Source: Tildeniella nuda ZEHNDER 1965/U140
Lineage (GTDB): Bacteria; Cyanobacteriota; Cyanobacteriia; Leptolyngbyales; Leptolyngbyaceae
Direction of reading: 5' to 3'
DNA: 64,000 nucleotides
NCBI GenBank assembly: GCA_019358895.1
Contig: JAHHIG010000019.1
Span: forward strand, 1-64,000
Notes under the pieces: generated by a model
What the model was told of the DNA's origin: nothing
The model's database searches: none
The model's input: only the letters and a program-made list of their open reading frames with translations
Position numbers and translations under genes: made by a program
Part shown: piece by piece, positions 19,649 through 45,855 of the stretch
How positions within the stretch are numbered: the stretch's first letter is position 1
How the letters are laid out: the number at the start of each line of letters is the position of its first letter

Positions 19649-19760
19649 TAGCTTTTAGCTTTTAGCTTTTAGCGGTCAGCAGTTAGCTTTCAGCGGTCAG
19701 CAGTTAGCGGTCAGCAGTTAGCGGTCAGCGGTCAGCGGTCAGCCTTTAGCTTTTAGTTCT
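19649..19760. repeat. GGTCAGC/AGTTAGC/CTTTTAG heptamer array (STRR)
   Basis: An interleaved array of heptamers (TTTTAGC, GGTCAGC, AGTTAGC, TTTCAGC) fills most of the space between the nitroreductase and the epimerase gene. Further short repeats (GAGGTGT, CTTCTGCCTC/CTGCCT) continue to 19895 and enter the last codons of the epimerase gene. Confidence 0.85.
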
Positions 19761-19866
19761 AAAATCCATTACTGCCTTCTGCCTCTTCGCGGAAGTGAGG
19801 TGTGAGGTGTGAGGTGTATTAGCTTCTGCCTTCTGCCTCCTGCCTTCTGCCTCAAACTGCTGCCTT

Positions 19867-21054
19867 CTACCTTCTGCCTCCTGCCTCAAACTGCTGCCAG
19901 CAAAGATAAAGCGCTCTTGGTACATGGAAGCAGCCTTTCCATTTGCCGCCTTTGAGGTTGAGCAAGACATCGCCACGACGATCGAGATAACCAAACCACT
20001 CCCCATATTGGGGATCAGCAAAATGTGACCAGGTGTAGCTGTGCAGTTTTTGATACCACTCCCAGCAAGCTTCTCGTCCCGTCAGGCGATAGCCCATTGC
20101 CAGCGCCACTAGCGATTCCAGGTGTACCCACCACAGCTTTTGATCCCATTCCAATTGCTGTGGCGGATGACCGTCTGCATCCATAAAGTAGTACAGTCCG
20201 CCATACTCAGCATCCCAGGCGAAGTCAAGGATATTGAGGACGACATCAACCGCTTGATGAATGAGAGTGATGTCGTTACGACGATCGGCGATCGCCATCA
20301 TGAACCACATGGCTTCGATACCGTGACCGGGGTTGATAAGTCGTCCTTCAAAGCAATTAATGTGCGAACCATCGGGCGCAACGTTTTCGTACATCAGTCC
20401 TCGATCGCCATCCAAAAAGTCAGTCATCACTTCTTGAACCGTAGCAGCCAGAATTCCCTCCAATTTGGCACTCGGCAATAACCAATCCATTTCCAACGAT
20501 AGGTTAGCCAGAATCATCGGCACTGCCAGGGACTTTAGCGATCGCGTACCAGGATAGGTTTTGTTATAGCTGCCTTTTGGATTGTCTTTGCGACGCAGCA
20601 CGTTGTCATACGCCTGTAAAGCTACATCTTTTGCCCAGTCTTCGCCCGATGCCAACGCATATTTGCTAAATGCCATTGCCGCAAAGCAGTCAGAAAAGAT
20701 GTTGTAGGGCTGTACGAGTGGATTGCCCGCGCGATCGAGCGCAAAATACCAGTTGCCCTCCCGATCGCGCCCATGTTTGGCGAGAAAGTTCGCCCCGTTT
20801 GCAGCAATCTCAAGCCAGCGATCGCGTTTCTCAAACTGGTCTTCAAGCTGGTTACACAGCATCGAAAACAGCCACACCTGCCGATTTTGCAACCAGATAA
20901 ATTTGTCGGTATCGTACACGTTGCCTGCGCGATCGAGACAGGTAAAGTAGCCGCCCTGCTCCCAGTCGATCGAATGCCGCTCCCAAAACGGAATCACATC
21001 ATCCAGTAACGCCTTCTTGTACTGGTCAGCCAATGTTCTAAAATTTTGTTCCAT
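19867..21054 (-). CDS. AGE-family epimerase/isomerase (N-acylglucosamine 2-epimerase-like)
   Basis: This 395-residue (alpha/alpha)6-barrel protein contains AGE-family blocks: [19 protein letters not shown]-like text near 52-72, [21 protein letters not shown] near 235-255, and [15 protein letters not shown] near 310. The family histidines near PGHG and WVHLE are visible. AGE members interconvert N-acyl-D-glucosamine and mannosamine or other aldoses; several cyanobacterial ones are ATP-independent or act on mannose-type sugars. The last residues (FEAGGRR) are encoded within the start of a CTTCTGCCTC repeat tract, so the C-terminus may have been rewritten by repeat expansion. It has no operon partner; substrate is not certain. 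Confidence 0.88.
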
Positions 21055-22698: not shown

Positions 22699-22771
<73 letters not shown>

Positions 22772-24950: not shown

Positions 24951-25487
24951 ATGTCTGAAGTTCAAAGTTTAATTCGTCCTTTCGGTCAAGTGATGGCTAA
25001 TCCGATCTTGCTGGAGCGATCGGTCACTGAACCTGTTTGTGAGGGTATGAACATCCTGCTGGCAAGTTTTCAAGCGTTGTATTTGCAGTATCAAAAGCAT
25101 CATTTTGTAGTTGAGGGCGCTGAGTTTTATTCTCTGCATCAGTTCTTTGCCGATCACTATGGACAAGTACAGGATCACGTGCATGAACTGGGGGAGCGTC
25201 TAGATGGTTTGGGTGGTGTGCCTGCTGCTAGCTTTACCAAGTTGGCAGAGCTGTGCTGCTTTACGCCTGAAGCGGATGATGCTTACACCTGCCGCCCAAT
25301 GCTGGAACATGATTTGGCAGCAGAGCAGGCAATTATTGGTGTGTTGCGCCGTCAAGCAGCTCAGGCAGAGACATTGGGCGATCGGGCGACTCGTTATCTA
25401 TATGAGACAATCTTGCTTAAAACCGAAGAGAGAGCCTATCACATCGCGCATTTCCTGGCACACGATACGCTGGTTGTGTTGAATTAA
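24951..25487 (+). CDS. dps: Dps-family DNA-protection/ferritin-like protein with His-type ferroxidase positions
   Basis: This 178-residue four-helix-bundle protein of the Dps family has helices with [21 protein letters not shown] and [14 protein letters not shown]. Aligned with Listeria Dps, His31 and His43 correspond to His51 and His63, Glu62 to Glu82, but Asp47 falls at Ala67 and Asp58 at His78. The inter-subunit ferroxidase site therefore departs from the standard His-His-Asp-Asp-Glu set and resembles the His-type centre reported for some cyanobacterial Dps proteins. It should form dodecamers that oxidise and store iron and limit hydroxyl radicals. A GGAGAA ribosome-binding site precedes the ATG. 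It sits next to the TonB island, which fits an iron theme. Confidence 0.88.
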
Positions 25488-25554
25488 GAGCGTTGGTTCA
25501 ACCGTTCATAGTCACCTCCATTTTTTGAGTGATGGCTTGGATCAAACCACTGCT

Positions 25555-26742
25555 TCACTGACCAGGTGTTGGTGGCGGAGCCGTTTCCACAAGTGCAGGT
25601 TCTGGTGGTGGAGCCGCCTCTACAGGTGCAGAAGGGGATTCTACAGGTGCAGGTGTGGCTTCGGGTAAAGGTGCAACAGTCTCACTAGCAGGCTTCTCAA
25701 CAGGGGGCACTTCTACCGGAGCCACGGAAGGAGCCGGAGCAGGTTTTATCGGTGTTTCAGCAGCAGTGGACGGCTGTTGACGCTGACGTTCCTCAGCTTC
25801 CCGCTGTTGACGTTCCTGTTCTGCAACCTGCCGCTGTTCTGCTTGCTGACGACGACGTTCTTCGTTACGCCGTTGATTGTTGGAACCCTCTTCTTCGTAT
25901 TCCACTCGTACCCGTTTCTTCACGCCGCCTTCGGGAACAGTTTTGGGGTCGAACCGCCACTTGCTCATGGTTTCTAGCGTCTCGCGATCGGTCTCTGGGT
26001 TACCGCTGGATTTTCGTAGCTGTACCTCCACACTCCCATCGGGTCGGACGGTCATATCCACACGGGGACTGCCTTCAGATCCCCGATATTTTGGTTTGGG
26101 GCAGCTCACGCAAGCGGGTTGGTTCGGCTTTGGCGCGGTTACAAGAGGAGCCGTTGTCCGGGTCGCAGTGCTGCCCGGTGTGCCTCCAGGTGTGCCACCG
26201 GGCGTACCTTTGGAGTCTCCATCGGGTCGTCCCAGAGGGTTAAAACCTGTGGGTCGGCTGGCATTGCCGAACCCGAAACCTGTCCCAAACGGACTAAAAA
26301 TGGGTCCACCGCCAATCCGCAGCCCACTATCTTCACCTGTTTTACTGGTAATAGGATTCACGACTTCCGAGGAGCGAGAGGGCGGTTGATTGCTGGGGGC
26401 ATCTTCGCCTGCCTCTTGTGGAGCCTGACTGTCGGGTGCTAGCGGTGGGGGTGGCGCAAAGGCAACTTCGGCGGCAGCTTCTGGTGGTGGCGGCTCAACC
26501 TTCTGCTCGATCGCCTGCTCTACAGGCTTTTCTGGCTCGATCGGCGTTTCGGGTTCCGCTACAACTTCGATCATCTCTTCTTCGGCTTCGGGCAGAGTGT
26601 TCCAAAAAGTAGTGGGTGCCGATGCTATTGCGATCGCGTGGAACGCAGCCGATCCCAAAAAACTCCATAGCAGAAAGGTTTTGATTGCCTTTCCTTCCTT
26701 TGCGCGTTGGGCAGTGGTTAAGTCTGAGGTACGCATAATCAC
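25555..26742 (-). CDS. tonB: TonB energy transducer with long tail after the TonB C-domain
   Basis: This 395-residue TonB has an N-terminal membrane anchor (about 22-42) and a Pro/Glu-rich periplasm-spanning region (about 50-130) with a Gly/Thr-Pro linker (PGGTPGGTPG). The TonB C-terminal domain lies about residues 214-285 (KPKYRGSEGSPRVDMTVRPDGSV ... MSKWRFDPKTVPEGG, in parts). Normally TonB ends with this domain; here about 110 further residues follow, first Arg/Gln/Glu-rich (likely helical), then Pro/Ala-rich. It spans the periplasm and passes proton-motive-force energy from ExbB/ExbD to outer-membrane receptors. Its start overlaps the exbD stop by four bases (ATGA), so it is the last gene of exbB-exbD-tonB. 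Confidence 0.88.
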   Translation of the reverse strand: MIMRTSDLTTAQRAKEGKAIKTFLLWSFLGSAAFHAIAIASAPTTFWNTLPEAEEEMIEVVAEPETPIEPEKPVEQAIEQKVEPPPPEAAAEVAFAPPPPLAPDSQAPQEAGEDAPSNQPPSRSSEVVNPITSKTGEDSGLRIGGGPIFSPFGTGFGFGNASRPTGFNPLGRPDGDSKGTPGGTPGGTPGSTATRTTAPLVTAPKPNQPACVSCPKPKYRGSEGSPRVDMTVRPDGSVEVQLRKSSGNPETDRETLETMSKWRFDPKTVPEGGVKKRVRVEYEEEGSNNQRRNEERRRQQAEQRQVAEQERQQREAEERQRQQPSTAAETPIKPAPAPSVAPVEVPPVEKPASETVAPLPEATPAPVESPSAPVEAAPPPEPALVETAPPPTPGQ

Positions 26743-27158
26743 TTCCGTTGAGTTGCAATTGCTAGTTTGGCTCCGGGAACCTGGCGCAGTTGATCCATCA
26801 CTTCGATGACATGATCGTGAGTGACCGCACCATCCGCATTCAGCACCACAATGAGTTCTTGACCAGAACTGAGTTGCGTTTTAATGGTGGTTGCCAGATT
26901 GTCAACTTGAATGGGTGCTTTGTTCAAAAAGACGTTTCCCGCTTTGTCGATGCTTACCGTCGATCGACTCGCCGCTTGTGGTTTAGCGGTGGTCGCTTTG
27001 GGTAAATTCACGGGTAAGCCTTCAATGCGCGTCAGAAATAAAGTGGAGAGCACAAAGAAGGTAAGCAGCGCGAACATGACATCGAGTAAAGGCACGACGT
27101 TCTTAATCTCTAGAGGCTGATCGAGCAAATCAGGATCAGACCGACGTTTTCTAGACAC
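26739..27158 (-). CDS. exbD: ExbD/TolR-family proton channel subunit
   Basis: This 139-residue protein has one N-terminal transmembrane segment (about 22-42) with PLLDVMFALLTFFVLSTLF, in which the Asp before VMF is the conserved proton-conducting residue. A periplasmic C-terminal domain (VDNLATTIKTQLSSGQELIVVLNADGAV) follows. ExbD forms the ion channel core with ExbB and energises TonB. It overlaps exbB by eight bases upstream and tonB by four bases downstream, so the three genes are translationally coupled. Length is typical. The TolR alternative is less likely given the adjacent TonB and receptors. Confidence 0.92.
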   Translation of the reverse strand: MSRKRRSDPDLLDQPLEIKNVVPLLDVMFALLTFFVLSTLFLTRIEGLPVNLPKATTAKPQAASRSTVSIDKAGNVFLNKAPIQVDNLATTIKTQLSSGQELIVVLNADGAVTHDHVIEVMDQLRQVPGAKLAIATQRK

Positions 27159-27795
27159 GAGAAACCTCCTGCCGCCTGTACGATCGCAGTTGCAACAGTT
27201 CTAACTGTGTGCAGCATTCGTCAATGTAGGCAATTTGTTGGGCGTAGAAGGAGCGAAACGTATTCGCCGCGATTAACGCTAAAACAGCGACCACTAAGCC
27301 AACGGCGGTCGAGACCAGCGCTTCGCTAATACCAGCCGTCACCCCGATCGTTTTAGAACTGCCAACATCGCCAAGCGTGAGTGAGCCAAAAGAGCGAATC
27401 AGACCTGTGACAGTACCCAGCAAGCCCAGGAGGGGAGCCAACCCAACAATGGTTTCAAAAATATTGTTGAAACGCTTGAGGTTGGGTATTTCTGCCTGAG
27501 TGCCAGCATCAAGCGCGAGTCGAAACTCATCTGGTGTTGCATTCGGTAAGGAGACTGCTTCCAGGAAAACGCGGGCAATGGGCAAATGCAGATGTTTCTG
27601 GAGCGTCGCTTCAGTGAGGGCAAGGTCGTCTTGATAGAGCTGCAACACACTCCGCACAACACGCTTTTGCTGTTTTCTAGCCCGTCTCCAAAAAAGAGCA
27701 CGCTCGATCGCCAGGGCAATGACCGCGATCGAAAACACAAGTAGCGGCACCATGACGATGCCGCCTGTGGCAATCAATTCATAAATTCTTTGCAT
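27151..27795 (-). CDS. exbB: ExbB/TolQ-family proton channel subunit
   Basis: This 214-residue protein has three transmembrane helices (about 8-30, 110-135 and 155-180 by text). The MotA/TolQ/ExbB signature GLAPLLGLLGTVTGLIRSF is present, and TAGISEALVSTAVGLVVAVLALIAAN includes the conserved Thr/Ala proton path. It forms the pentameric scaffold around ExbD. I preferred ATG 27795 (MQRIYELIATGG) over an upstream ATG at 27873; the upstream 26 codons are non-conserved and GAGA precedes 27795. First gene of exbB-exbD-tonB. It is divergent from the first receptor gene, with about 510 bases of shared upstream DNA. Confidence 0.9.
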   Translation of the reverse strand: MQRIYELIATGGIVMVPLLVFSIAVIALAIERALFWRRARKQQKRVVRSVLQLYQDDLALTEATLQKHLHLPIARVFLEAVSLPNATPDEFRLALDAGTQAEIPNLKRFNNIFETIVGLAPLLGLLGTVTGLIRSFGSLTLGDVGSSKTIGVTAGISEALVSTAVGLVVAVLALIAANTFRSFYAQQIAYIDECCTQLELLQLRSYRRQEVSRV

Positions 27796-27873
27796 GCATT
27801 CTCTACGTAAAGGTAAACGACAGTCAGTACTGGCGATCGCGCGACTCACACTGACACCATCTTTCCAAAGCAC

Positions 27874-28308
27874 TATAGAACTTAATAGGAACTTATATCA
27901 AGTAGCTTACCCAATTAATTTCTGATACTCACACTGCGCTGCTCGATCGCCAAACGCAAACCTGGCTTCAGTCTCTTAAGACACGATCGACAGTGTTCTC
28001 AACTAAATCAAGACGAAAACCAAGAACTTTTGTGCTGACCTCAAAGCATTGATCAGTGCCGAAAAGACTGAAAAACCCCTCTCTGAGCCGTAAAAACCGT
28101 TTTCAGGGTACCCTGAACCAAATTATCCTTTAATCACAAAAGGCTTGACTTTAGGCAGCAGTCATCATAATTTCTTGATCATTACTAAAAGTAATTTGCA
28201 ATAAGCCGAGTCAGTTCTCTTGCTAGGACTGAGAAAGCGCTGTCACTCGTCTACCTGAGACGGGCAGTTTCTGTTGCAAATAAGGTCATTCGCCTGTGAG
28301 GATGTGTT
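27874..28308. other. Divergent promoter region between exbB and the first receptor
   Basis: About 435 bases without a gene. It should hold promoters for both the exbB-exbD-tonB operon and the receptor/PepSY operon. It is AT-rich around 28130-28200, where a short inverted repeat lies. A clear Fur box matching GATAATGATAATCATTATC could not be identified. Confidence 0.6.
28181..28195. promoter_or_regulatory. ATTACT-N3-AGTAAT inverted repeat
   Basis: Six-base arms separated by three bases lie 113 bases before the first receptor start and within the exbB divergent region. It is a candidate for an iron-responsive regulator site; it does not fit the canonical Fur consensus well, so the regulator is unassigned. 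Confidence 0.4.
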
Positions 28309-30831
28309 GTGAAGCTATTGCATTTAAGGCTGGGGGTGGCGATCGCTGCCGTGTTCTCTGTCGGTACTGCCCCGATCGCTTGGGCGGAAACGAGCGACGG
28401 GAACAACTTGCGCTTGCGTGACTTTAACCGTCCCGCAATGACGGTCAAAGAGTGGTTGGCACAAGTGGAAGCCGTAACGGTGACGGTGACGGGGGTAAAG
28501 CTGGAGCGCACCGAAGCAGGTTTAAACATCACCCTGGAAACCGCCGATGGCAGGCTGCTGCAAATTGACGCAACCAAATTCCGCAGTGAAAACAAGAACC
28601 TGATTGCAGACATTCCCAATGCAGTATTGGCGCTGCCCGATGCTCAAGAGTTTAGTGCCGAGAACCCAACGGGAGAGATTGCGAATGTCCGCGTGACGCA
28701 AGTGGATGCAGCCAACATTCGAGTCATCGTAGCGGGTAAAAATGCGTTGCCAACCGAGGAAGTGACGCTAAAAACGGGCGCGTTGGCATACAGCCTCAAC
28801 CCGGAAGGAGAAACACCAGAAGAAGAACTGGTGGTGACGGGCGATCGTTCTGGTAGCGCTTATTTTGCGCCCAACTCAACCACGGCTACCAAGCTGGATG
28901 TGCCACTGCGTGATGTCCCGGCATCGATCCAGGTGATTCCACGTCAGTTGATTGAAGATAAACAACTTGTGCGGTTGAATGACCTGGCTGATTATGTCAG
29001 TGGGGTTCAAGCGCAGTCTGGTTATGGGGGATTGTCTTCCCAGGGGTATTACTTCCGGGGGTTTGAAACCAGTTTTGAAACGCTGCGTAATGGCTTCCGC
29101 GATTTTGGGTTTCTCAGTCCCCGCGATGTCGCAAATGTGGAGCGGGTAGAGTTTCTCAAAGGACCTGCTTCGGTGTTGTATGGCGGTTCCTTTGGTAGCA
29201 TCGCTGGCGTTGTCAACACCATTACCAAAAAGCCGTTAGAGACTCCGTTCCGTCAGGTGGGCATCACCGTTGGCAGCTACAGTTTTTACCGTCCCACGAT
29301 CGACCTTACGGGTCCACTCACACCAGATAAATCCTTGCTCTACCGTCTGAATCTGGCGTATGAGAATGCCGGAAGTTACCGAGATTTCGTTGATAGCGAA
29401 AGCATTTTCGTTGCGCCTGCGTTGACCTGGCGGCTTGGTCCCAAAACCACCTTCACGATCGAACTGGAGTATCAGAAGTATGACTATGTGTTCGATCGCG
29501 GCTTGCTCCCCAATGCTGTCTTTCTGACACTTCCCAGAGAGCGCTTTTTAGGAGAGCCTGGGTTCAATCGGGCTGAAGTTGAGTCACTCGCTGTTACCTA
29601 TAACTTTGAGCACAACTTTAGTGACAATTGGAAGTTCAGGCAGGGCTTTAATGCCAACCTGGTTTCAAACTTTCAGCAGAATGTGCGCGGTTCTCGCTTT
29701 TCCGAGCCTTTGTTAGAAGCGGACGGACGATCGCTCCCCCGACGAGCCGAGAGAGAGCCAGATTCCGATCAGCAAAACTTCACGCTGCAAAATGAGGTGT
29801 TTGGCAAGTTCAATACGGGTTCTATTCGTCATAATCTGTTGTTTGGTGTTGAGCTTTCTCGCTATCGCTTCAACTACTCGTTCTTCAGGGCATCGATCGA
29901 TTCCTTGGATATTTTTAACCCCGTCTATGGCGCGAAACCTGGAGCGTTTGAACTCGCGTATTCGCCAGAAGAATACGGAGCCGATAACGTGGGTGTTTAT
30001 GTACAGGATTTGATCGAACTTCTGCCCAACCTGAAACTTTTAGCGGGACTGCGCTTTGATGCCAACGATAGCTTTTACCGCAATGAAGACCGCACAACAG
30101 ATTTAAGCCAAACTGATACCGGAGTTTCTCCCCGACTGGGACTGGTTTACCAACCGACTGACACCACCGCGCTTTATTTCAGTTGGTCTAGGTCATTCAA
30201 TCCGCAATTCTTCAGCCGTAACCGTACTGGTGAAGCCTTTAAACCAGAAGAAGGCGAGCAGTTTGAGATCGGTGTGAAACAAGAATTGTTCAATAAACGC
30301 CTGTCATTCAACCTGGCTTTCTACCAAATCACAAAGCAGAACGTACTGACGACTGATCCTAACGATTCTGACTTCAGCATTCAGACAGGAGAGCAGAAGA
30401 GCAGAGGTATTGAGCTAGATATTACTGGTCAAATTTTGCCGGGATGGGATGTAATTGCAACCTATGCCTACACGGATGCGTTTGTCAGTGAAGATAATGT
30501 GCTTCCAGTTGGTGAAACGCTAGTGAATGCGGCAAAGCATCGAGCGAGCTTGTGGACAAAGTACGAAATTCAGGACGGTAATTTGCGCGGCTTGGGGTTT
30601 GGCGTTGGCGTTGTCTTCAGCGACGATCGCCCGATCGGGCTGCCCAATGTGCTGATTCTTCCATCTTACGTGCGGGCTGATGCTGCACTTTTCTACCGCC
30701 GAGAGGGATGGCGGTTAGCGCTTAACTTCCGCAACATTTCCAACACCAAATATCAAGAGTCGCAGGGCAATTTCTATTTCATTCCGGCGGCACCCTTCAC
30801 GGTCTACGGTACGGTTTCATACCAGTTCTAG
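28309..30831 (+). CDS. TonB-dependent receptor with N-terminal AMIN domain (siderophore type)
   Basis: This is an 840-residue outer-membrane receptor beginning with GTG. A signal peptide (about 1-25) precedes an AMIN domain (about 40-165, ANIRVIVAGKNALP). A TonB box-like EELVVTG follows near 175, then a plug domain (DVPASIQVIPRQLIEDKQLVRLNDLADYVSGV, read in parts). A 22-stranded barrel ends in the aromatic residue of YQF. FLKGPASVLYG is the classical siderophore-receptor plug signature. AMIN domains bind peptidoglycan or cell-envelope structures and recur in cyanobacterial receptors. It takes up a ferric chelate or similar ligand using the ExbBD-TonB system encoded divergently. Followed 20 bases later by a PepSY gene. 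A GTGAGG ribosome-binding site supports the GTG start. Ligand unknown. Confidence 0.9.
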   Translation: MKLLHLRLGVAIAAVFSVGTAPIAWAETSDGNNLRLRDFNRPAMTVKEWLAQVEAVTVTVTGVKLERTEAGLNITLETADGRLLQIDATKFRSENKNLIADIPNAVLALPDAQEFSAENPTGEIANVRVTQVDAANIRVIVAGKNALPTEEVTLKTGALAYSLNPEGETPEEELVVTGDRSGSAYFAPNSTTATKLDVPLRDVPASIQVIPRQLIEDKQLVRLNDLADYVSGVQAQSGYGGLSSQGYYFRGFETSFETLRNGFRDFGFLSPRDVANVERVEFLKGPASVLYGGSFGSIAGVVNTITKKPLETPFRQVGITVGSYSFYRPTIDLTGPLTPDKSLLYRLNLAYENAGSYRDFVDSESIFVAPALTWRLGPKTTFTIELEYQKYDYVFDRGLLPNAVFLTLPRERFLGEPGFNRAEVESLAVTYNFEHNFSDNWKFRQGFNANLVSNFQQNVRGSRFSEPLLEADGRSLPRRAEREPDSDQQNFTLQNEVFGKFNTGSIRHNLLFGVELSRYRFNYSFFRASIDSLDIFNPVYGAKPGAFELAYSPEEYGADNVGVYVQDLIELLPNLKLLAGLRFDANDSFYRNEDRTTDLSQTDTGVSPRLGLVYQPTDTTALYFSWSRSFNPQFFSRNRTGEAFKPEEGEQFEIGVKQELFNKRLSFNLAFYQITKQNVLTTDPNDSDFSIQTGEQKSRGIELDITGQILPGWDVIATYAYTDAFVSEDNVLPVGETLVNAAKHRASLWTKYEIQDGNLRGLGFGVGVVFSDDRPIGLPNVLILPSYVRADAALFYRREGWRLALNFRNISNTKYQESQGNFYFIPAAPFTVYGTVSYQF

Positions 30832-30851
30832 GATTTAAAGGAGACTGACTA

Positions 30852-32018
30852 ATGCGTACAGCAAAGCTGATCCCTCTAGGCTCGCTTCGACTCCGTTCCC
30901 TGGTGTTCCAATTGCACCGTTATCTGGGACTATTCTGCGGCTTCATTTTGATCATCATTGGAATTACTGGCAGTTTGCTCGTCTTTGAACCGGAACTAGA
31001 ACATCAGTTGATTGAACACCGCATCGGGGCGATCGTGCCTCAAGCAAACCTGATCAGCATTGATACCGTTGTTGCAACCGTGCAGGCAGAATTGAAACGT
31101 GCTCCCAATCTTACCCTGGGCAACATTTTGCTGCCGCAAGATACCACCTCTCCTTACCAGGCTCGATTGTGGGATACCAACAATCATCTTGTGCAACTGT
31201 TTATTCATCCCTATAGCGGACACGTGATGGGAATGATTTCAGAAGCCGAGAGTTGGCTACAGATCGCGCTACGTCTGCATTATCAACTGCTTGCTGGTGA
31301 CACGGGGGCTATGATTACGGGCATTGTCGGCTTGCTCTCATTCCTTTTAAGCCTTACTGGCATTGTGTTGTGGACAGGGTGGCGTAAGTTGATTGCAGGC
31401 TTCAAAATCAAGTGGAACGCCCATCCCAAACGGCGCAATTTTGATCTTCACAAAGTTACTGGTGTCGTTGCGGCTGTGTTTCTTGCTCTCACAGGTTTCA
31501 CAGGCTTCTGTTGGAATTTTTACGACTGGTCGAGTGCGCTGATTTACACGCTTACCTTAACGCCCAAACCACCAGAATTGATCGCTAAACCACTACCAGG
31601 GCAAGCTGCGTTACCGGCTTCAACCATTTTGCAGATGGCGGATACGACCTTTCCCAATGCCATCACGACTTATCTGGGCATTCCCAGCACGCCAGAAGGT
31701 GTGGTTCGAGTCGGCAAGCGCCAACCGCACGAATCCTTTCGCTATGGGGAAAGTGAACTGCTGGTAGATCCCTATACGGGAAAGGCTCTGCGCGTTCAAG
31801 ATAGCAAAACTCTGGCATTCGGCGATCGCATCCTCAATGCCTTTGTTCCCCTCCACTACGGCACCTTTGGTGGGCTAAGCACTCGTATTTTCTATGTCTT
31901 TGTCGGTCTAACACCGCTGATTCTTTTTACAACGGGCTTTGTCATGTGGTGGTATCGCAAACGCAAAGACGTTCGGGTAGTGGAAACAACTGGGGTAGGG
32001 ACGATCGCCAAACATTGA
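30852..32018 (+). CDS. PepSY-associated transmembrane protein, first copy
   Basis: This 388-residue membrane protein of the PepSY-TM family has helices at about 22-45 (HRYLGLFCGFILIIIGITGSLLVF), 145-170, 195-220 and 345-365. Large periplasmic regions between them contain the PepSY-like fold. Conserved histidines lie near the helix ends (LHRYLG, LRLHYQLLAG, DLHKVTGVV), as in heme-binding or ferric-reductase-related members. The family is repeatedly linked to TonB-dependent siderophore uptake, where it probably reduces or handles iron at the inner membrane (FoxB/PiuB-like). It follows the first receptor by 20 bases with a GGAGA ribosome-binding site, so the two form an operon. Electron donor unknown. 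Confidence 0.85.
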   Translation: MRTAKLIPLGSLRLRSLVFQLHRYLGLFCGFILIIIGITGSLLVFEPELEHQLIEHRIGAIVPQANLISIDTVVATVQAELKRAPNLTLGNILLPQDTTSPYQARLWDTNNHLVQLFIHPYSGHVMGMISEAESWLQIALRLHYQLLAGDTGAMITGIVGLLSFLLSLTGIVLWTGWRKLIAGFKIKWNAHPKRRNFDLHKVTGVVAAVFLALTGFTGFCWNFYDWSSALIYTLTLTPKPPELIAKPLPGQAALPASTILQMADTTFPNAITTYLGIPSTPEGVVRVGKRQPHESFRYGESELLVDPYTGKALRVQDSKTLAFGDRILNAFVPLHYGTFGGLSTRIFYVFVGLTPLILFTTGFVMWWYRKRKDVRVVETTGVGTIAKH

Positions 32019-32120
32019 GCGATCGCTACAATCTAGTGCGATCGCATCCTCAATGCTTCTGAAGCAGTAAGCACCTGCTTACGCTTTTCTAAGAACTCAA
32101 TCAGCAAACAGGCAATTTGC

Positions 32121-32313
32121 TTTCTCCTTTTGACCATTTATTTTCTCATTTCAGTAGTTTCCGCAAGCAAAATGATCATTTACTTTCTCAATCTACGGTT
32201 TGCTTTCTCATTTCAGTAAATCGCGTACTCATTCCAGTAGTTTCCGCAAGCAAAATGACCATTTACTTTCTCAATCTACGGTTTGCTTTCTCATTTCAGT
32301 AAATCGCGCACTC
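32121..32313. promoter_or_regulatory. Direct-repeat array upstream of the second receptor
   Basis: An 83-bp unit occurs twice in tandem (32152-32234 and 32235-32313, the second cut short). Within and just before it the hexamer TTTCTC, in the context TTTRYTTTCTC(A/C), begins at 32121, 32142, 32184, 32204, 32267 and 32287. The spacings are 21, 42, 20, 63 and 20, all near whole multiples of 21 bp (two helical turns). The array ends 70 bases before the receptor start. AraC-type siderophore regulators bind direct repeats at such places, but no regulator gene is adjacent. The region 32019-32382 contains no gene. Confidence 0.7.
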
Positions 32314-32382
32314 GTTATCACGCATCGCAGCTTCAGATTTCGACTCAACTTTTCAAGTTTTTCCACCGTGTGAGGCTTTGTT

Positions 32383-34932
32383 GTGAAACCATTTTTGCCG
32401 ATTCATTCCCTATGCATTATGAGTGCTGCTGCTTTATGGATAGTGCCAACCGTGCAAGCTAACGAAGCAGCACAACCATTACCATCGGCTGAAACTATCA
32501 AGTTGCGGGACTTCAAACGCCCTGCAATCACCGTCAAAGAATGGCTGGCACAGGTGGAAGCCGCAACGGTGCAAGTGACAGGCGTAACGTTAGAGCGTAC
32601 CGAAGTGGGTTTCAACATCACCCTGGAAACGGTAGATGGCAAACCGTTACAAGTAGATGCCACTAAATTCAAAACCGAGGGCAACAGTTTGATTGCCGAC
32701 ATTCCCAATGCGGTGTTGGCACTGACTAATGCTCAAGAGTTTAGTGCCGATAACCCAACGGGAGAGATTGCCAATGTCCGCGTGACGCAAGTGGATGCAG
32801 CCAACATTCGAGTCATCGTAGCGGGTAAAAATGCGTTGCCAACCGAGGAAGTGACGCTAAAAACGGGCGCGTTGGCGTACAGTCTCAACCCGGAAGGGGA
32901 GACACCGGAAGAAGAACTCGTGGTGACGGGAGAAGGACAGCGGGGTTACAGCGCTCCCAATGCATCAACGGCAACTGGAACAGACGCACCGATTCTAGAA
33001 ACCCCTTTTTCAGTGCAGGTCGTCCCGCAGGATGTGCTTCGTGATCAGCAGGTGATCCGTCTTGAGGATGCCTTGACGAACATCAGTGGTGTGATCTCTG
33101 CAGGCAATAACGGGGGACGTGAAGCCGCTTTCAGCATTCGGGGTTTTGGCAATCAGTTTAGTAGCTCCGTGCCAACCCTCAGAGATGGGTATCGCTTATA
33201 CGGCAGCTTTCAAGGTATTTCAGAGATCGGTATTTTAGAACGGGTTGAAGTGCTGAAAGGTCCCGCTTCCATTTTGTATGGAGAAATTGAACCGGGCGGC
33301 GTGATTAATCTGGTATCTAAAAAACCACTGGCAAAACCATTTTATGAAGCAGAACTTCAGGTGGGCAGTCGAGCATTGGTGCGCCCTCGCATTGATTTAA
33401 CGGGTTCTCTCACTACAGATGGGAGTTTGCTCTACCGCTTGAATGCTCTCTATCAGCACGATCGCAGTTTTCGCAATTTTGATACCGATACCAACCGTTT
33501 TGCCATTGCCCCAACATTGACCTGGAAAATGAGCGATCGCACGGATCTAACGGTTAGCCTGGACTACATCCATCAGGAAAGTCCCGCAGATTTTGGCATT
33601 ACTAAATTTGGCGATGGAGTGGCTCCCGTTTCACGAGCGTTCGTGGCAAATAACCCGGATGATTCGATTACAACGGACTATTTAAGTGCAGGCTACAGCT
33701 TTGAACATCGCTTTAGTGATCACTGGAAAATTCGGAATGGCTTTCGCTACATCAGCTACGACTACGACTACAGTGTTGTCGCACTGCCATTTCTTGTCAT
33801 TGATTCGGATATCATTCGCTTTTTTGCCGATCAAGACGGTCAGGATCGTTCCTATGCTCTTACTACCAGTGTTGTCGGTAAATTTGCCACTGGCTCAATC
33901 AAACATACCCTTACCGCAGGCGTTGATCTAAATCGCAGTGAATCGCGCATTCTCACCGTCTTTGGCGATCCCTCACCGCTTAATATCTTCGCTCCAGACT
34001 ATGACCTCATTCCTAAACCCGATCGCGCTGCTTTACCGCTGTTTGGCGACACACTCACAACAGCAAACCGACTGGGTCTCTACCTGCAAGATCAGGTCTA
34101 CTTGCTAGACAATTTGATTCTTGTGGCTGGCTTACGCTATGACACAATCACTCAAAAGACGACAAATGTGGAAACTGCCTTCAGTGAAGGTGGCGCATCA
34201 GAGCAAACCAATGATGCTCTAACTCCGCGTGTGGGATTGTTATACCGTCCGATTCCAGCACTGGCAATCTTTGCCAACTATTCCCAATCGTTTAGACCCA
34301 GCACGTCTCTCACAGCCAGTGGCTCCCCGCTACAACCCGAAAGAGGTGAAGGGTTTGAAGTAGGCGTGAAAACCGAGTTATTGAATCAAAAATTGCTGGC
34401 AACCTTAACCTACTTTGACATCACCAAGAAAAATGTCGGCGTTGCTGATCCAAACAATCCTCTGTTCTCGATCGCAACGGGTGAGCAAAAGAGTCGAGGA
34501 ATGGAGTTCGACATTGCTGGCGAATTGGCACCAGGATGGAAAGTCATTGCTTCTTACGCCTATACCAATGCAAAAATCTCTGACGATACCGATGAAACCA
34601 TCGTTGGCAATCGGTTATTTGGAATTCCTAGAAGTAAGGCGAGTTTATGGACAACCTATGAAATCCAGCAAGGCAGCTTCAAAGGGCTAGGGTTTGGGGT
34701 GGGCTTTGAGTATGTCAGTAATCGCTTTGGTGACCTGGCAAATAGTTTTCGCGTAGGCGACTACCTGGTTGGCAATGCAGCCATTTATTATCGCCGTGAC
34801 AACTATCGCTTTGCCGTCAATATCAGAAATTTTGCCAACGCCAATTACATTAGGGCGCTGACTGGCAATGAAGGTGGCATTGAACCCGGAGAGCCATTAA
34901 CCGTCATTGGTTCGGTTTCAGTGCAATTTTGA
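32383..34932 (+). CDS. TonB-dependent receptor with N-terminal AMIN domain, second copy
   Basis: This is an 849-residue receptor with the same layout as the first: GTG start after a GTGAGG site, signal peptide, AMIN domain, EELVVTG TonB-box-like motif, plug (LERVEVLKGPASILYGEIEPGG) and a barrel ending VQF. The EIEPGGVINLVSKKPL text is typical of hydroxamate/ferrichrome-like siderophore receptors. From about residue 110 to 185 it is almost identical to the first receptor at DNA level, while the plug and barrel have diverged, so ligand range likely differs. Preceded by the phased repeat array and followed by a hairpin and a second PepSY gene. The ligand cannot be read. Confidence 0.9.
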   Translation: MKPFLPIHSLCIMSAAALWIVPTVQANEAAQPLPSAETIKLRDFKRPAITVKEWLAQVEAATVQVTGVTLERTEVGFNITLETVDGKPLQVDATKFKTEGNSLIADIPNAVLALTNAQEFSADNPTGEIANVRVTQVDAANIRVIVAGKNALPTEEVTLKTGALAYSLNPEGETPEEELVVTGEGQRGYSAPNASTATGTDAPILETPFSVQVVPQDVLRDQQVIRLEDALTNISGVISAGNNGGREAAFSIRGFGNQFSSSVPTLRDGYRLYGSFQGISEIGILERVEVLKGPASILYGEIEPGGVINLVSKKPLAKPFYEAELQVGSRALVRPRIDLTGSLTTDGSLLYRLNALYQHDRSFRNFDTDTNRFAIAPTLTWKMSDRTDLTVSLDYIHQESPADFGITKFGDGVAPVSRAFVANNPDDSITTDYLSAGYSFEHRFSDHWKIRNGFRYISYDYDYSVVALPFLVIDSDIIRFFADQDGQDRSYALTTSVVGKFATGSIKHTLTAGVDLNRSESRILTVFGDPSPLNIFAPDYDLIPKPDRAALPLFGDTLTTANRLGLYLQDQVYLLDNLILVAGLRYDTITQKTTNVETAFSEGGASEQTNDALTPRVGLLYRPIPALAIFANYSQSFRPSTSLTASGSPLQPERGEGFEVGVKTELLNQKLLATLTYFDITKKNVGVADPNNPLFSIATGEQKSRGMEFDIAGELAPGWKVIASYAYTNAKISDDTDETIVGNRLFGIPRSKASLWTTYEIQQGSFKGLGFGVGFEYVSNRFGDLANSFRVGDYLVGNAAIYYRRDNYRFAVNIRNFANANYIRALTGNEGGIEPGEPLTVIGSVSVQF

Positions 34933-34941
34933 TACAAACAC

Positions 34942-34976
34942 TAGATCCCCGACTTCTTTAAGAAGCCGGGGATCTA
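34942..34976. repeat. TAGATCCCCG hairpin between receptor and PepSY genes
   Basis: TAGATCCCCG and CGGGGATCTA pair, with inner CTTCTTTAAGAAG also pairing, giving an almost complete 35-base stem. This AGATCCCCGACTTCT palindrome is a widespread cyanobacterial repeat. Being 67 bases past the receptor start-to-stop end and just before the PepSY ribosome-binding site, it may attenuate or stabilise the message. Confidence 0.7.
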
Positions 34977-34999
34977 AACACTAACTAGGAGACGTTGTT

Positions 35000-36136
35000 A
35001 TGAATACAAACCGCTTGCGTCAGTGGGTTTTAAGATTGCATGGTTCGATCGGCATTGCAATGGGATTGCTGCTGGTCATGATTAGCTTGTCGGGTGCGGG
35101 CATTGTGTTCCAGGAAGAACTGGATCACGGGTTGCATCGATCGCTCTGGCACGTTACACCACAAGCCGAACAGGTGCCATTAGATGCCATGTTTGCCTCG
35201 GCTCAGGCAATCCATCCTAATTTGCCTGTGAGTTATATTCAGGCTCCTAAAACACCCACAGAAAGCTATGTGTTTAACCAATACACACCCAATGAACGCC
35301 GACTGCAAACCTTTGTGAATCCATACACGGGACAGGTTTTGGGTTCGCGTACTTGGGAGTATTCTTTCATTGGCTTTCTCTACACAGTGCATCACGATCT
35401 CTTTGCAGGCAAAGTGGGACAAATTACGGTCGGTGTGACAGGTGTTTTACTGCTGTTAATGGCAATGACCGGAGTGATGCTGTGGACGGGCTGGCGTAAG
35501 TTAGCAACGGGTTTCAACATTCGGTGGAATGCTCCATTGCCACTGGTTAGCTACGACTTCCATCAGGTTAGCGGCATTGTTTCCAACATCTTTCTGACGA
35601 TTACTGCCGTCACAGGGGTTGTGATTGTCGTCCTTCACTTTTTACCAATGTTCAATCAAACACCAACAGCGAAGCCTGCTGTTAACGCGCCAACAGTTGC
35701 TTTGAGTACGCTGATGCAAAAAGCGGATGCTGCCATCCCAGACGGCATCACAACGTCGATCGAATTACCTGATCACGATCCGCAAAAAATGACGGTGCGT
35801 AAAAAACTGCCCAATCAGGATACGGGACGGTTTGATCTCAGCGTGGTGGAGATCGATCGCACCAGCGGTGAAGTAATTCAATCGACTAAAGTTGAAAAAG
35901 CGGAAGGCTTATTCAAGTTTATTGTGGCGATCGCCGACCTCCACTTCGGTACCTTTGGTGGTTTGCCCACCCGCATTCTTTACGTTTTTGTGGGGTTAAT
36001 GCCCACCGTTTTATTCATTACAGGTCTAGTGAATTGGCGACGTAGACGGACGATCGGTACCCGGCGAGAAACTGCCTTGCAATTTGCAGAGACACAAGAC
36101 AGTCGGCGATCGCTCAGCAATCCTGACTACGATTGA
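35000..36136 (+). CDS. PepSY-associated transmembrane protein, second copy
   Basis: This 378-residue PepSY-TM protein is a paralogue of the one at 30852-32018. N-terminal helix LRLHGSIGIAMGLLLVMISLSGAGIVF, middle helices near 135-160 and 185-210, and a C-terminal helix before the stop are similarly placed. Conserved histidines occur in LHGSIG, VHHDLFAG and DFHQVSGIV. It follows the second receptor by 67 bases with a GGAGA ribosome-binding site and ends the TonB island. Like its paralogue it is likely an inner-membrane partner of ferric-chelate uptake, possibly a reductase subunit; this is inferred from family context only. The C-terminal about 30 residues are charged and cytoplasmic. Confidence 0.83.
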   Translation: MNTNRLRQWVLRLHGSIGIAMGLLLVMISLSGAGIVFQEELDHGLHRSLWHVTPQAEQVPLDAMFASAQAIHPNLPVSYIQAPKTPTESYVFNQYTPNERRLQTFVNPYTGQVLGSRTWEYSFIGFLYTVHHDLFAGKVGQITVGVTGVLLLLMAMTGVMLWTGWRKLATGFNIRWNAPLPLVSYDFHQVSGIVSNIFLTITAVTGVVIVVLHFLPMFNQTPTAKPAVNAPTVALSTLMQKADAAIPDGITTSIELPDHDPQKMTVRKKLPNQDTGRFDLSVVEIDRTSGEVIQSTKVEKAEGLFKFIVAIADLHFGTFGGLPTRILYVFVGLMPTVLFITGLVNWRRRRTIGTRRETALQFAETQDSRRSLSNPDYD

Positions 36137-37522: not shown

Positions 37523-38236
37523 ATGCATTCCCCCGAAGACGGCAAGAAACATAAAACACGACGAAATTTTTTAGGACAGGCGTTGACCGCAGCAGGAACA
37601 GCGATCGCGGCTCCCTCACTGCTCAATCAAGCAACAGCCGCTCAAACTGAAAAGCCTGCTCCTGGACAAGGTGAACTGTCTGTATCTCTTAACATTAACG
37701 GCAAGCAACAAACGCTGGCGATCGAGCCACGCGTCACGCTGCTGGATACTCTGCGCGAACGACTGGGGCTGACTGGCAGCAAAAAAGGCTGTGACCACGG
37801 ACAATGCGGAGCCTGTACGGTACTGGTGGATGGACAGCGGATCTATTCCTGTCTCGCGCTGGCAGTCATGCAGGAGGGCAAGCAAATTGTCACCGTGGAA
37901 GGACTGGCAAAAGGAGATGTGCTGCATCCGGTACAAACTGCCTTTATCGAGAACGATGGGCTTCAGTGCGGCTACTGTACCCCCGGACAAATCTGCGCCT
38001 CGGTTGCTTTGCTGGATGAAGTAAAACGAGGCTGTGCCAGCGCCGTTACAGTGGATCTGACCAAACCTCAACTGATGAATCTTTCGGAAGCTGAAATCAA
38101 AGAGCGATTAAGCGGTAATCTCTGTCGCTGTAGCGCTTACAACGGAATCGTGGCTGCTGTTCAGCAAGCAACTGGACAAACGCCTCCCTCTCCTGCGGCG
38201 GCAATGTTGGTGCGTGAAGCAGGAGTTCCGGCATGA
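37523..38236 (+). CDS. paoA: Aldehyde oxidoreductase 2Fe-2S subunit, Tat-exported (PaoA/YagT-like)
   Basis: This 237-residue iron-sulfur subunit of a xanthine-oxidase-family molybdoenzyme carries a twin-arginine signal (RRNFLG at 13-18, hydrophobic to about 31, cleavage near ATAAQ). The first [2Fe-2S] cluster is plant-type with Cys90, Cys95, Cys98 and Cys110; the second uses Cys149, Cys152, Cys201 and Cys203. The Tat signal implies export of the folded heterotrimer to the periplasm, as for E. coli PaoABC. The stop overlaps the start of the FAD subunit gene by four bases. The enzyme oxidises aldehydes to carboxylic acids in known homologues; the physiological substrate here is unknown. First gene of the Mo-enzyme operon. 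Confidence 0.92.
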   Translation: MHSPEDGKKHKTRRNFLGQALTAAGTAIAAPSLLNQATAAQTEKPAPGQGELSVSLNINGKQQTLAIEPRVTLLDTLRERLGLTGSKKGCDHGQCGACTVLVDGQRIYSCLALAVMQEGKQIVTVEGLAKGDVLHPVQTAFIENDGLQCGYCTPGQICASVALLDEVKRGCASAVTVDLTKPQLMNLSEAEIKERLSGNLCRCSAYNGIVAAVQQATGQTPPSPAAAMLVREAGVPA

Positions 38237-39222
38237 AAAACTTTTCCTATGTCCGCGCTACCTCGGTGAAAGAAGCCGTTCAGCAGGCATCGAGCAGTCC
38301 AACTGCGATGTTCATCGCGGGTGGCACCAATCTGGTCGATCGCATGAAAGTCTTTTTAGACGAACCCTCCCAACTGATTGATATCAACCGTCTGGGAATG
38401 ACGCGCATTGAGCAAACGAGCAGCGGTCTACGCCTTGGCGCACTCGTTAGCAACACCGCTGTTGCCGATCATCCCGAAGTCCGGCGCAACTATCCCATGT
38501 TGTCCCGTGCCATTCTACTGGGAGCGTCTCAGCAAATTCGCAATGTGGCAACGACGGGCGGCAACCTGCTGCAACGGACTCGCTGCCCCTACTACTACGA
38601 CACCGCATTTAACTGCAACAAACGAGAACCCGGAACGGGCTGTGCAGCACTGACTGGCATTAACCGGATACACGCCCTGTTTGGAGCCAGCGATCAGTGC
38701 GTGGCAGTACATCCCTCTGATATGTGCGTGCCTCTGGCAGCGCTGGAGGCGATCGTGGAAGTAGAAGGAGCCAAAGGCAAGCGCCAAATTCCGTTTACCA
38801 ACTTCCATCGGCTACCGGGCGACACTCCACAACGAGATACCAATTTGGAACCGGGGGAACTGATTACAGCAGTGATCTTACCGTCTGCATCGTTTGCTAA
38901 CAGCGTGTATTTGAAGCTGCGCGATCGGGCCTCCTATGCGTTTGCGCTGGTTTCGGTTGCAGCGGCGGTTGAAATGGCAGACAACCGTATCAAAACAGCA
39001 CGGCTGGCGATGGGCGGCATGGCTCACAAACCCTGGCGGTTTACGGAGGCGGAGACCTTTCTCACGGGCAAAGCGGCAACGACCGAAACGTTCCAACAGG
39101 CAGCCGAGGTTGCCTTGCAAGGAGCCAAACCGCTCGAGCACAACGGCTTCAAAGTCGAATTAGCCAAACGGGCGATCAGACGCGCCCTCACAGTTTCAGC
39201 CAAAGGAGGCGGGATCGCATGA
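38233..39222 (+). CDS. paoB: Aldehyde oxidoreductase FAD-binding subunit with extra 4Fe-4S site (PaoB/YagS-like)
   Basis: This 329-residue FAD-binding subunit (CO dehydrogenase medium-chain type) has the FAD phosphate motifs FIAGGTNLVD (about 27-36) and ATTGGNLLQ (106-114). A cysteine-rich insertion follows (RCPYYY ... FNCNKREPGTGCAAL ... SDQCVAVHPSDM) with Cys118, Cys128, Cys137 and Cys156, matching the [4Fe-4S] cluster that distinguishes PaoB and some relatives from plain xanthine dehydrogenases. It takes electrons from the 2Fe-2S clusters and passes them to an acceptor. It overlaps paoA by four bases and paoC by four bases. Confidence 0.92.
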   Translation: MKNFSYVRATSVKEAVQQASSSPTAMFIAGGTNLVDRMKVFLDEPSQLIDINRLGMTRIEQTSSGLRLGALVSNTAVADHPEVRRNYPMLSRAILLGASQQIRNVATTGGNLLQRTRCPYYYDTAFNCNKREPGTGCAALTGINRIHALFGASDQCVAVHPSDMCVPLAALEAIVEVEGAKGKRQIPFTNFHRLPGDTPQRDTNLEPGELITAVILPSASFANSVYLKLRDRASYAFALVSVAAAVEMADNRIKTARLAMGGMAHKPWRFTEAETFLTGKAATTETFQQAAEVALQGAKPLEHNGFKVELAKRAIRRALTVSAKGGGIA

Positions 39223-41333
39223 GTAAGGTGATTGGTACGGCGGTCAACCGCAAAGATGGCTACGCAAAAGTAACGGGCACGGCGACTTACTCGGCAGAGC
39301 ATGACGTTCCGGGACTGGTGCATGGGGTTGTGGTCACGTCTACGATCGCGAATGGACGGATTAAGGCGATCGACACCCGCGAAGCAGAAAAGGCTCCCGG
39401 CGTGATTGCTGTCTTCACGCCCAAGAATGCCCCCAAGGTGTTTAAACCCAGCAACGACTTTATGAAGTCGAAAATTTACGAAGCGCGTTTGCCGCTGGCA
39501 GATGACAAGGTTCACTACGCAGGGCAAATCATCGGCTTGGTGGTAGCCGATACCTTTGAACGGGCAAGACACGGCGCGCAACTGGTGAAGGTCGAGTACG
39601 ACGCTCAGAAGCCCACGATCGAGGCGAAAAACGCAGTTTACAAAGAAGCGCCGCCACAGATGGGTGAGGAATTTAAGTTTACAAAAGGGGATTTTGCCGC
39701 TGGGATGGCAAGTGCCGCCACGAAAATCGAGGCAACTTACACAACTTCGACCGAGCTACACGCGCCGCTGGAACCCCACGCCACGATCGCCCACTGGCAA
39801 GGAACAGATTCTCTCACCGTCTACGAGCCGTCCCAGTGGGTTGCGTTAACTCAGCGTACCTACGCTGAACTATTTGGGCTACCGTCAGAAAAGGTTCGCA
39901 TCGTGATTCCTTACCTGGGCGGAGCGTTTGGCTGTAAAGGGTTTCCTTGGCCCCACGCGATTTTGACTGCTGCCGCCGCTCGTCAAATCAAGCGTCCCCT
40001 CAAAGTTGTGATGAGCCGTAGACAGATGACTGCCAACACGGGGCATCGGTCTGAAACAGAACAAACGATTCGACTGGCGGCAGCGGCAGATGGAATGCTG
40101 AGCGCGATCGCCCATGAAGTGAAGTCCACCACATCACCCGTGGATGTCTTCACAGAGCCTTGTACCTCTGTCACGCCAGTCATGTACACCGCTCCCAATC
40201 TGCTGCTGAATCAAGAGTTGGCAGTGATGAATATCGGCACACCTACTTTTATGCGGGGTCCTGGCGAAACTCCAGGCATGTGGGCGTTGGAGTCGGCGAT
40301 GGATGAACTCGCCTGGGCGTTGAAGCTAGACCCAGTAGCACTGCGGCTGAAGAACGAAACAAAGGAGCATCAGCGCAAGGGACTCCCCTTCTCCGCCAAA
40401 CATTTTGCCGATTGTCTCAAGGTTGGGGCAGAGCGGTTTGGTTGGAAAGACAGACCACAGCCGCGATCGCTGACCCGCGATGGTGCACTCGTGGGCTGGG
40501 GCATGGCGGCTGCCACCTTCCCTGGTTCTCGCGGCGCAACCTCCGCTAAAGTGCGTTTGTTGCCCGATGGCACGGTTCATGTTCTCACCTCTGGCAACGA
40601 TATGGGGACGGGTTCGTACACGGTTGTGGCGATCGCCGCCGCCGATACATTGGGCATTCCGGTTGAAAAGGTGCGAGTGGAGATGGGTGACTCACAGTTG
40701 CCCGATGGCGGCTTGGCAGGCGGTTCTCAGATGACTGCATCCCTCGTCCCCAGCGTCACCAAAGCGTGCCAGGATATCCTCAAAACTGCCAACTGCACCA
40801 GTGGAACTGAAGCCTGTGCAGCGCTTCAGAAGTCGGGACGGGCGGCGATCGAAGCCTCTGCGTCTTCTGCTCCTGGTGACGAAGACAAGAAATGGGCATT
40901 CCAGTCCTGGGGCGCTCACTTTTGCGAAGTCACCGTCGATGAAGAAATTGGACGGTTGCGAGTCACCCGCTGGGTATCGGTGATGGATGTTGGGCGCGTG
41001 ATCAATACCAAAGCCGCTGCCAGTCAGGTGCGCGGTGGGGTGATTATGGGGCTTGGACAGGCACTGATGGAAGAGTGCCATTTTGATCCAAACACCGGGT
41101 ATCCCGTCGTCTATGATCTTGCGACCTATCACTTCCCTGCCCATGCAGACACGCCTCGGATTGATGTTGCCTTTGTCGGCGAACCGGATTTGAACTTTAA
41201 TCCGGCAGGTGCACGCGGTGTCGGTGAGATTTGCATCACGGGTGTCTCAGCAGCCGTTGCCAATGCGGTCTACCACGCCACGGGCAAGCGATTACGCAGT
41301 TTGCCACTCACACCCGACAAGTTGATTGCGTAA
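39219..41333 (+). CDS. paoC: Aldehyde oxidoreductase molybdenum-binding subunit (PaoC/YagR-like)
   Basis: This 704-residue Mo-pyranopterin subunit of the xanthine-oxidase family has the two-domain layout: an aldehyde-oxidase a/b-hammerhead domain (about 15-125) and the cofactor domain after about 140. Typical blocks are LGGAFGCKG, RGPGETPG and, near the C-terminus, GARGVGEIC with the conserved base Glu670. Substrate is oxidised at the Mo centre using water-derived oxygen. Homologues use the cytidine dinucleotide form of the cofactor, which matches the MocA-like gene downstream. It overlaps paoB by four bases. The inverted MITE copy lies just after it, before the ABM gene. Substrate is unknown; aromatic or aliphatic aldehydes are likely from homology to PaoABC and isoquinoline oxidoreductase. 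Confidence 0.92.
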   Translation: MSKVIGTAVNRKDGYAKVTGTATYSAEHDVPGLVHGVVVTSTIANGRIKAIDTREAEKAPGVIAVFTPKNAPKVFKPSNDFMKSKIYEARLPLADDKVHYAGQIIGLVVADTFERARHGAQLVKVEYDAQKPTIEAKNAVYKEAPPQMGEEFKFTKGDFAAGMASAATKIEATYTTSTELHAPLEPHATIAHWQGTDSLTVYEPSQWVALTQRTYAELFGLPSEKVRIVIPYLGGAFGCKGFPWPHAILTAAAARQIKRPLKVVMSRRQMTANTGHRSETEQTIRLAAAADGMLSAIAHEVKSTTSPVDVFTEPCTSVTPVMYTAPNLLLNQELAVMNIGTPTFMRGPGETPGMWALESAMDELAWALKLDPVALRLKNETKEHQRKGLPFSAKHFADCLKVGAERFGWKDRPQPRSLTRDGALVGWGMAAATFPGSRGATSAKVRLLPDGTVHVLTSGNDMGTGSYTVVAIAAADTLGIPVEKVRVEMGDSQLPDGGLAGGSQMTASLVPSVTKACQDILKTANCTSGTEACAALQKSGRAAIEASASSAPGDEDKKWAFQSWGAHFCEVTVDEEIGRLRVTRWVSVMDVGRVINTKAAASQVRGGVIMGLGQALMEECHFDPNTGYPVVYDLATYHFPAHADTPRIDVAFVGEPDLNFNPAGARGVGEICITGVSAAVANAVYHATGKRLRSLPLTPDKLIA

Positions 41334-45757: not shown

Positions 45758-45855
45758 TTTGTTACCTTCTAAGGTGGTTACTACTTAGATAGCTTGCCGC
45801 TGCGGTGGCTGACCAAGGGCGATCACCCCTCACCGAAGATCTACGGAGCACTCAG

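Follow-up and report, generated by a model that had tools for sequence, protein, structure and literature searches.

The array of helically phased direct repeats that lies between a PepSY-associated protein gene and a TonB-dependent receptor gene in the window (the whole stretch of 64,000 nucleotides analysed here) is best explained as a solo copy of an array type which, in filamentous cyanobacteria, precedes P0001, a gene whose small protein product is uncharacterised. We propose that array and gene form a partnership resembling that of REPIN sequences and RAYT proteins, with an unrelated protein as the partner that would bind the array, a reading to which we give about an even chance of being right. 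Sequence comparison establishes the linkage of gene and array, the ~21-bp period, the specificity of array sequence for protein subgroups, the presence of solo arrays and a home locus found across genera.

A sequence-only reading of this DNA had listed six copies of TTTCTC (at 32121, 32142, 32184, 32204, 32267 and 32287), and the pattern search returned exactly these positions. Within the window, the longer motif TTTRYTTTCTC was found six times on the forward strand and never on the reverse strand, always inside the element (Table 1), and in the whole own genome (a 6.08-Mb draft of 38 contigs) it was found 40 times vs 9 for the reversed pattern, several of the further matches being clustered with equal spacing at contigs C24, C36 and C18. 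After alignment it turned out that the six copies represent one kind of module within a longer array (~220 bp) of ~11 modules of 20 or 21 bp, the mean column identity being 80% for the 11 aligned elements. The proposed phasing of the copies by two helical turns is real, with the best-fitting period of 20.75-20.8 bp and not 21 (mean cosine of 0.989 at 20.75, 0.953 at 21.0 and 0.83 at 10.5, for 64 spacings below 200 bp compiled by hand), and the 83-bp duplication was likewise located by tandem-repeat search. The reversed GAGAAAGCGC copy at 28231, once counted with the array, lost its support, as this position is missing from the BLAST matches (up to E 1) of the element in the own genome; TTTCTC itself is common in the window (51 occurrences on both strands together). 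No inverted repeat pairs, as would form the ends of a MITE or the inverted doublets of palindromic REP sequences, were detected between 31701 and 32600 of the window at default settings; short AAGCAAA/TTTGCTT inversions between modules were seen by eye. Stronger constraint against indels on the element than on its flanks was considered and dropped, because indels are not clearly rarer within the element, and several pairs of orthologs show equal conservation of the element and its flank.

Table 1. Features of the window around the array
Feature	Position	Strand	Remarks
PepSY-associated TM protein (PF03929), upstream neighbour	30852..32018	+	
Element, array of ~11 modules of 20/21 bp	32096..32316	+	BLAST and alignment of 11 elements; solo copy of the array type preceding P0001
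Six TTTRYTTTCTC modules	32116, 32137, 32179, 32199, 32262, 32282 (32116..32292)	+	Pattern search
Tandem duplication of 83 bp, four modules each, inside the element	32145..32310	+	96% identical
Receptor leader TTTTCAAGTTTTTCCACCGTGTGAGGCTTTGTTGTGAAACC	32350..32390	+	Similar leader at the paralogous junction of G005:C79, which lacks the element
TonB-dependent receptor with AMIN domain, downstream neighbour	32383..34932	+	

The most conserved place of the element is upstream of P0001 and not of the receptor. The element lies ~120-165 bp upstream of this gene of ~148 aa, and in the own family (42 genomes, among the 30 loci listed) the array was found upstream of all seven full-length P0001 orthologs (at least 70% identity, four genera), of none of 22 paralogs, and not upstream of one truncated ortholog. 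Seven element loci run into the 148-aa-type ORF, and an eighth, L089, has only the flank in common. In two other families, the leader and an array of this type precede the orthologs of G113 (82%, L264) and G213 (73%, L257), and in G140 the array type precedes a truncated ortholog (L320). At the nine intact orthologs the forward motifs (3-8) always outnumbered the reverse ones (0-1). No array was found at L170:6019-7063 (G001:C155) between a truncated integron integrase and the truncated P0001 ortholog that it runs directly into.

The element was detected in 13 of 97 genomes including the own (12 of the 96 others), all 13 belonging to the own family, of which 42 genomes were searched. Seven of these genomes carry a full ortholog and G001 a truncated one; in the remaining five (G002, G003, G009, G010 and G023), some of them fragmented assemblies, no ortholog was found at 70% identity, and in three of the five the matches are short or weak only. 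Solo copies are not dependent on the presence of the gene. In searches with a 19-mer, carriers were 18 of 80 genomes of the family of G213 and 8 of 194 genomes of the class, with the reversed pattern scoring zero in every row of both searches. The seven genomes of the class with the best P0001 scores are all among the eight with the 19-mer, giving the co-occurrence table 7/1/0/186. This table equates the 194 genomes sampled for the 19-mer with the 194 sampled for P0001, and it omits G140, in which the array type stands at a truncated ortholog without the exact 19-mer (7/1/1/185 when counted). A degenerate 27-base pattern found 19 stretches in named genomes, 6 in Stenomitos, Lyngbya, Phormidesmis and Scytolyngbya and 13 in Nostoc and its relatives.

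The linkage extends over the whole gene family. Using TRF within 700 bp, and counting periods of 19-22 bp and near-multiples of 20.85, we detected an array with a period of ~21 bp, or of a multiple of this length, upstream of 50 and downstream of 1 of 71 family genes (3 of 74 genes, with less than 400 bp on one side, were dropped); a first look had given 22/33 upstream and 1/33 downstream, and without the ten genes of the P0001 group upstream arrays were found at 41 of 61. For control genes, drawn from L137-L174 (loci of intI) and from the window, the numbers were 17 upstream and 7 downstream among 225, several of the 17 being ~41-bp repeats near intI and one the window element itself (Fisher p 3e-25 for family vs controls upstream, a value that ignores relatedness). 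Outside the own family the arrays were upstream of 16 and downstream of none of 21 genes (14/19 upstream minus L309 and L310, which are the earlier loci L264 and L257). The autocorrelation, averaged over the regions upstream of 62 paralogs, peaked only at lags 21, 42, 63 and 84 (0.363, 0.356, 0.346 and 0.339; all-lag mean 0.258, sd 0.022), and for 61 paralogs the best lag in the range 15-30 was significant in 43, being lag 21 in 40 of these, and in none downstream. The family arrays end ~120-465 bp ahead of the start codon, and in the P0001 group a period of 20.8 bp is kept by mixing 20- and 21-bp modules. The phasing is kept in relatives, and the ~21-bp period persists across the gene family despite the change in sequence, which is what a protein reading the helix from one side would lead one to expect. 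Common descent links the family genes with one another, and likewise the arrays, so that the counts do not represent independent events, and by itself it could account for the coupling between array and protein; also against a partnership, 21 of the 71 genes are arrayless by the TRF rule.

A period of 21 could also represent seven codons, but coding heptad repeats were dropped after analysis of the reading frames: codon phase in the variability was detected in none of 24 gap-free arrays (threshold p<0.05; median p 0.55), and an ATG is absent from 5 of the 11 frames inspected. In the same 24 arrays the most open of the six frames carried 2 stops in total vs 5.2 after column shuffling, with none in 22, a result that taken by itself would be compatible with coding, and among 40 arrays of at least 100 bp there was no open forward frame in 15 and no open reverse frame in 19. 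Translation of the arrays is unlikely on these sequence features.

Array sequences are specific for one protein subgroup each and mostly uniform within that subgroup across genera. For 50 genes (1225 gene pairs), arrays were similar in only 1 of 1096 pairs with protein identity below 60%, in 35 of 70 at 60-75% and in 53 of 59 above 75% (Mantel r 0.425; 0/999 permutations). Solo arrays were found for other subgroups as well. In the own genome the L293-type array, besides a match to a home array at C4, occurs at 8 places with at least seven 21-bp units (TRF) and flanks to 1.5 kb without family gene, at least seven of which count as solo, the one at C17 starting 142 bp from the contig end; for the L304 type, the places at C7 and C11 lie beside family gene sequence and a single place, at C16, is solo.

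BLAST of the own genome gave five homologous arrays, i.e. the window array together with those at C36 (neighbours including an integron integrase and also a pentapeptide protein), C18 (a LuxR-type protein and the 148-aa ORF, the home gene), C24 (an IS1 transposase match) and a short one at C11. In several comparisons the homology stops at the element edges. Along these lines, a neutral or selfish mosaic repeat, spread by recombination and local duplication without any cognate protein, would owe its position before P0001 to inherited history; we regard this as a possible but rather unlikely explanation. It fits the three copies with unrelated flanks in G016 (two of them, L095 and L097, with elements 92% identical), the loci having only one flank in common (the 3' flank for L081, L086 and L091, the 5' flank for L010 and L082), the exchange of modules with the local 83-bp duplication, and the elements in genomes lacking the gene. 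It does not predict, however, that ~21-bp arrays should lie upstream and not downstream at 50 of 71 family genes, nor that the period should stay constant across subgroups with different sequences. The motif GCGATCGC, known as HIP1, is frequent in such genomes and stands close to or directly at the ends of some elements, among them L095, L097, L081 and L085. Phage or plasmid origin was dropped, with no match found among phages and viral contigs, and with plasmid matches in three Tolypothrix/Microchaete records besides a single match of the protein to a Kovacikia replicon.

REPIN-RAYT systems are described as a single-copy gene beside its own repeat cluster, with copies scattered between genes, and some genomes as carrying more than one such pair of gene and repeat, with a distinct repeat in each (PMC3116915). 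The present system is alike in the private repeat type by each gene (50 genes) and in the scattered copies (the window, L293 and one L304 place), and unlike in having no transposase among the families listed for the protein, tandem direct modules of ~21 bp in place of palindromic doublets, and few copies. As no Y1 (HUH) transposase was detected for 29 family members among the families listed (25 of 42 for Pfam, 25 of 33 for PHROGs and 21 of 21 for NCBIfam) and the palindromic repeats are likewise lacking, we do not class it as REPIN-RAYT. By analogy it may nevertheless work most like these systems, and would possibly be a categorically new one if the protein binds its array. Repeats in helical phase are also found in plasmid iterons, parC/parS clusters and AraC half-sites placed 21 bp apart, and the arrays share the phased direct repeats with such iteron and operator arrays; the differences are a partner protein without known DNA-binding domain and solo arrays scattered over the chromosome. 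With the short tandemly repeated repetitive sequences of cyanobacteria, which have a heptamer unit, they share the location as intergenic tandem repeats in filamentous cyanobacteria, differing in the 20/21-bp unit and the link to a gene family. Heptamer arrays are present elsewhere in the window at 22699-22771 (GCTGACC, 10.4 copies), 19649-19898 and 3433-3467, and a 71-bp tandem repeat at 45855-46207 consists of five near-identical copies (99%).

Type III toxin-antitoxin systems (toxIN, cptIN and tenpIN) carry tandem repeats upstream of the toxin gene (PMC5086642), and the present arrays likewise stand ahead of a small-protein gene, with repeats that differ between subgroups. It is nevertheless quite improbable that the array is transcribed into RNA antitoxin-like repeats restraining the downstream protein: no ToxN/CptN/TenpN-type toxin was detected among the families listed for the 29 members, solo arrays exist without gene, and a two-turn period of ~21 bp is needless for RNA. 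At L011, the only home locus scanned, two terminator-like sites were found, near the chance level of 0.8 +- 1.0, and both inside the array. A structured RNA in general was considered and not adopted as the explanation: there was no Rfam match in the window, L009, L010 or L011, and the window element folds weakly (z of -0.47 and +0.19), with L080 folding better (-2.95 and -2.12).

An integron recombination site was suggested by the presence of intI or its remnants, on the same strand, within 700 bp 5' of 9 of 33 element loci (three remnants being weak, with E of 0.0006-0.004), ending within ~105 bp, with none 3' of the element in the 33 loci and none in the reversed-flank control. In addition, a different 21-bp array of ~10 copies follows the integron integrase of G035 (L153:3900-4125), this solo array of a second type resembling the L293 type (69%, E 2e-11). 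The element is, however, not general at integrase genes: by eye, only 6 of 43 intI loci, all from the own genus, carry it in the 3' flank (one locus being partial and one flankless), 14 of the 43 have tandem repeats of 39-42 bp in the position expected for attI, 18-133 bp 5' of the integrase gene, and the element precedes P0001 orthologs at loci free of intI. We therefore dropped this candidate, giving it very little credence. The integron sites attI and attC are characterized by RYYYAAC/GTTRRRY cores and a folded bottom strand. Integron integrases (TIGR02249) are frequent in the own family, where 28 of 42 genomes score above the curated cut-off; the 43 loci include L010:8461-9558.

The array had initially been read as a site for an iron-responsive regulator of the TonB receptor, which we now consider highly unlikely. 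Its end lies ~70 bp ahead of the receptor start and, in the congener G005, it is still located before the receptor (L090); in the congener G006 the element stands beside the PepSY gene only (L083). The reading fails because the four further arrays of the own genome are all away from receptors and paralogous receptor junctions in relatives are without array, so that the array is neither restricted to receptor promoters nor regularly kept there. Boxes for a receptor regulator, of the AraC/PchR type or another, were rejected on the same grounds, with 10 ORFs of the window scanned. The second PepSY-receptor junction of G005 (G005:C79) has the leader without the element, two receptor starts in G005:C4 have no element, and at one junction of G006:C8 just ~25 bp separate the PepSY end from the receptor leader (BLAST coordinates), and the window element is thus extra relative to these paralogs. 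The window copy is most likely an insertion between the PepSY and receptor genes that predates the split from G005; no clean target duplication was readable, the paralogous empty-site junctions being too diverged. Given its retention at this receptor in G005 and behind the PepSY gene in G006, the element may have a local effect, with any effect on the receptor being putative at most. Among the 10 ORFs scanned, an iron cluster is located at 24951-36136 of the window (ferritin-like, TonB, ExbB and two receptor/PepSY pairs, whose receptors carry the AMIN domain), followed by molybdenum hydroxylase-type genes at 37523-41333.

The proteins of the P0001 family (~120-155 aa) have basic ends, a predicted helical core and 12 invariant columns in the alignment of 29 members, for which no convincing match was found in Pfam, NCBIfam, PHROGs or PDB. 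Weak matches of single members to Med9 (E 0.00015) and a phage tail fibre (E 0.00085), and of 9 members to a hypothetical NCBIfam model (best E 0.00069, scores far below its cut-off), are taken as chance similarity of helices or coiled coils. The AlphaFold model is poor (pLDDT 62 and pTM 0.28, with two sequences), only the helical core of residues 39-89 being confident. In the class search, with up to 21 scored candidates per genome, the family was detected in 37 of 194 genomes with 1-14 matches each.

Among the readings considered, we prefer the protein as a reader of DNA because what stays constant is the two-turn period and not the sequence; against it are the lack of a match to any known DNA-binding family or solved structure and the elements in genomes without the gene. 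In this partnership the P0001-family protein would bind its own array, presumably occupying one helical face of it at intervals of two turns; an array at home might then serve for autoregulation or assembly, and the solo arrays might be further landing sites or drifting derivatives. More tentatively, each protein may have co-diversified with its private two-turn arrays, acting in trans on home and solo sites as a new sequence-specific filament for chromosome organisation or silencing. No description of the element or of the gene-array pair was found in the literature covered, which is mostly outside subscription papers. For a family that reaches 14 matches in a genome and is without convincing match in the libraries searched, the linkage to arrays is the first strong clue to function, and the matched and mismatched gene-array pairs offer ready-made material for the study of protein-DNA (or protein-RNA) specificity. 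If true, the partnership would represent an apparently undescribed, repeatedly duplicated small-protein system of filamentous cyanobacteria, and would explain a class of the intergenic repeats scattered in cyanobacterial genomes.
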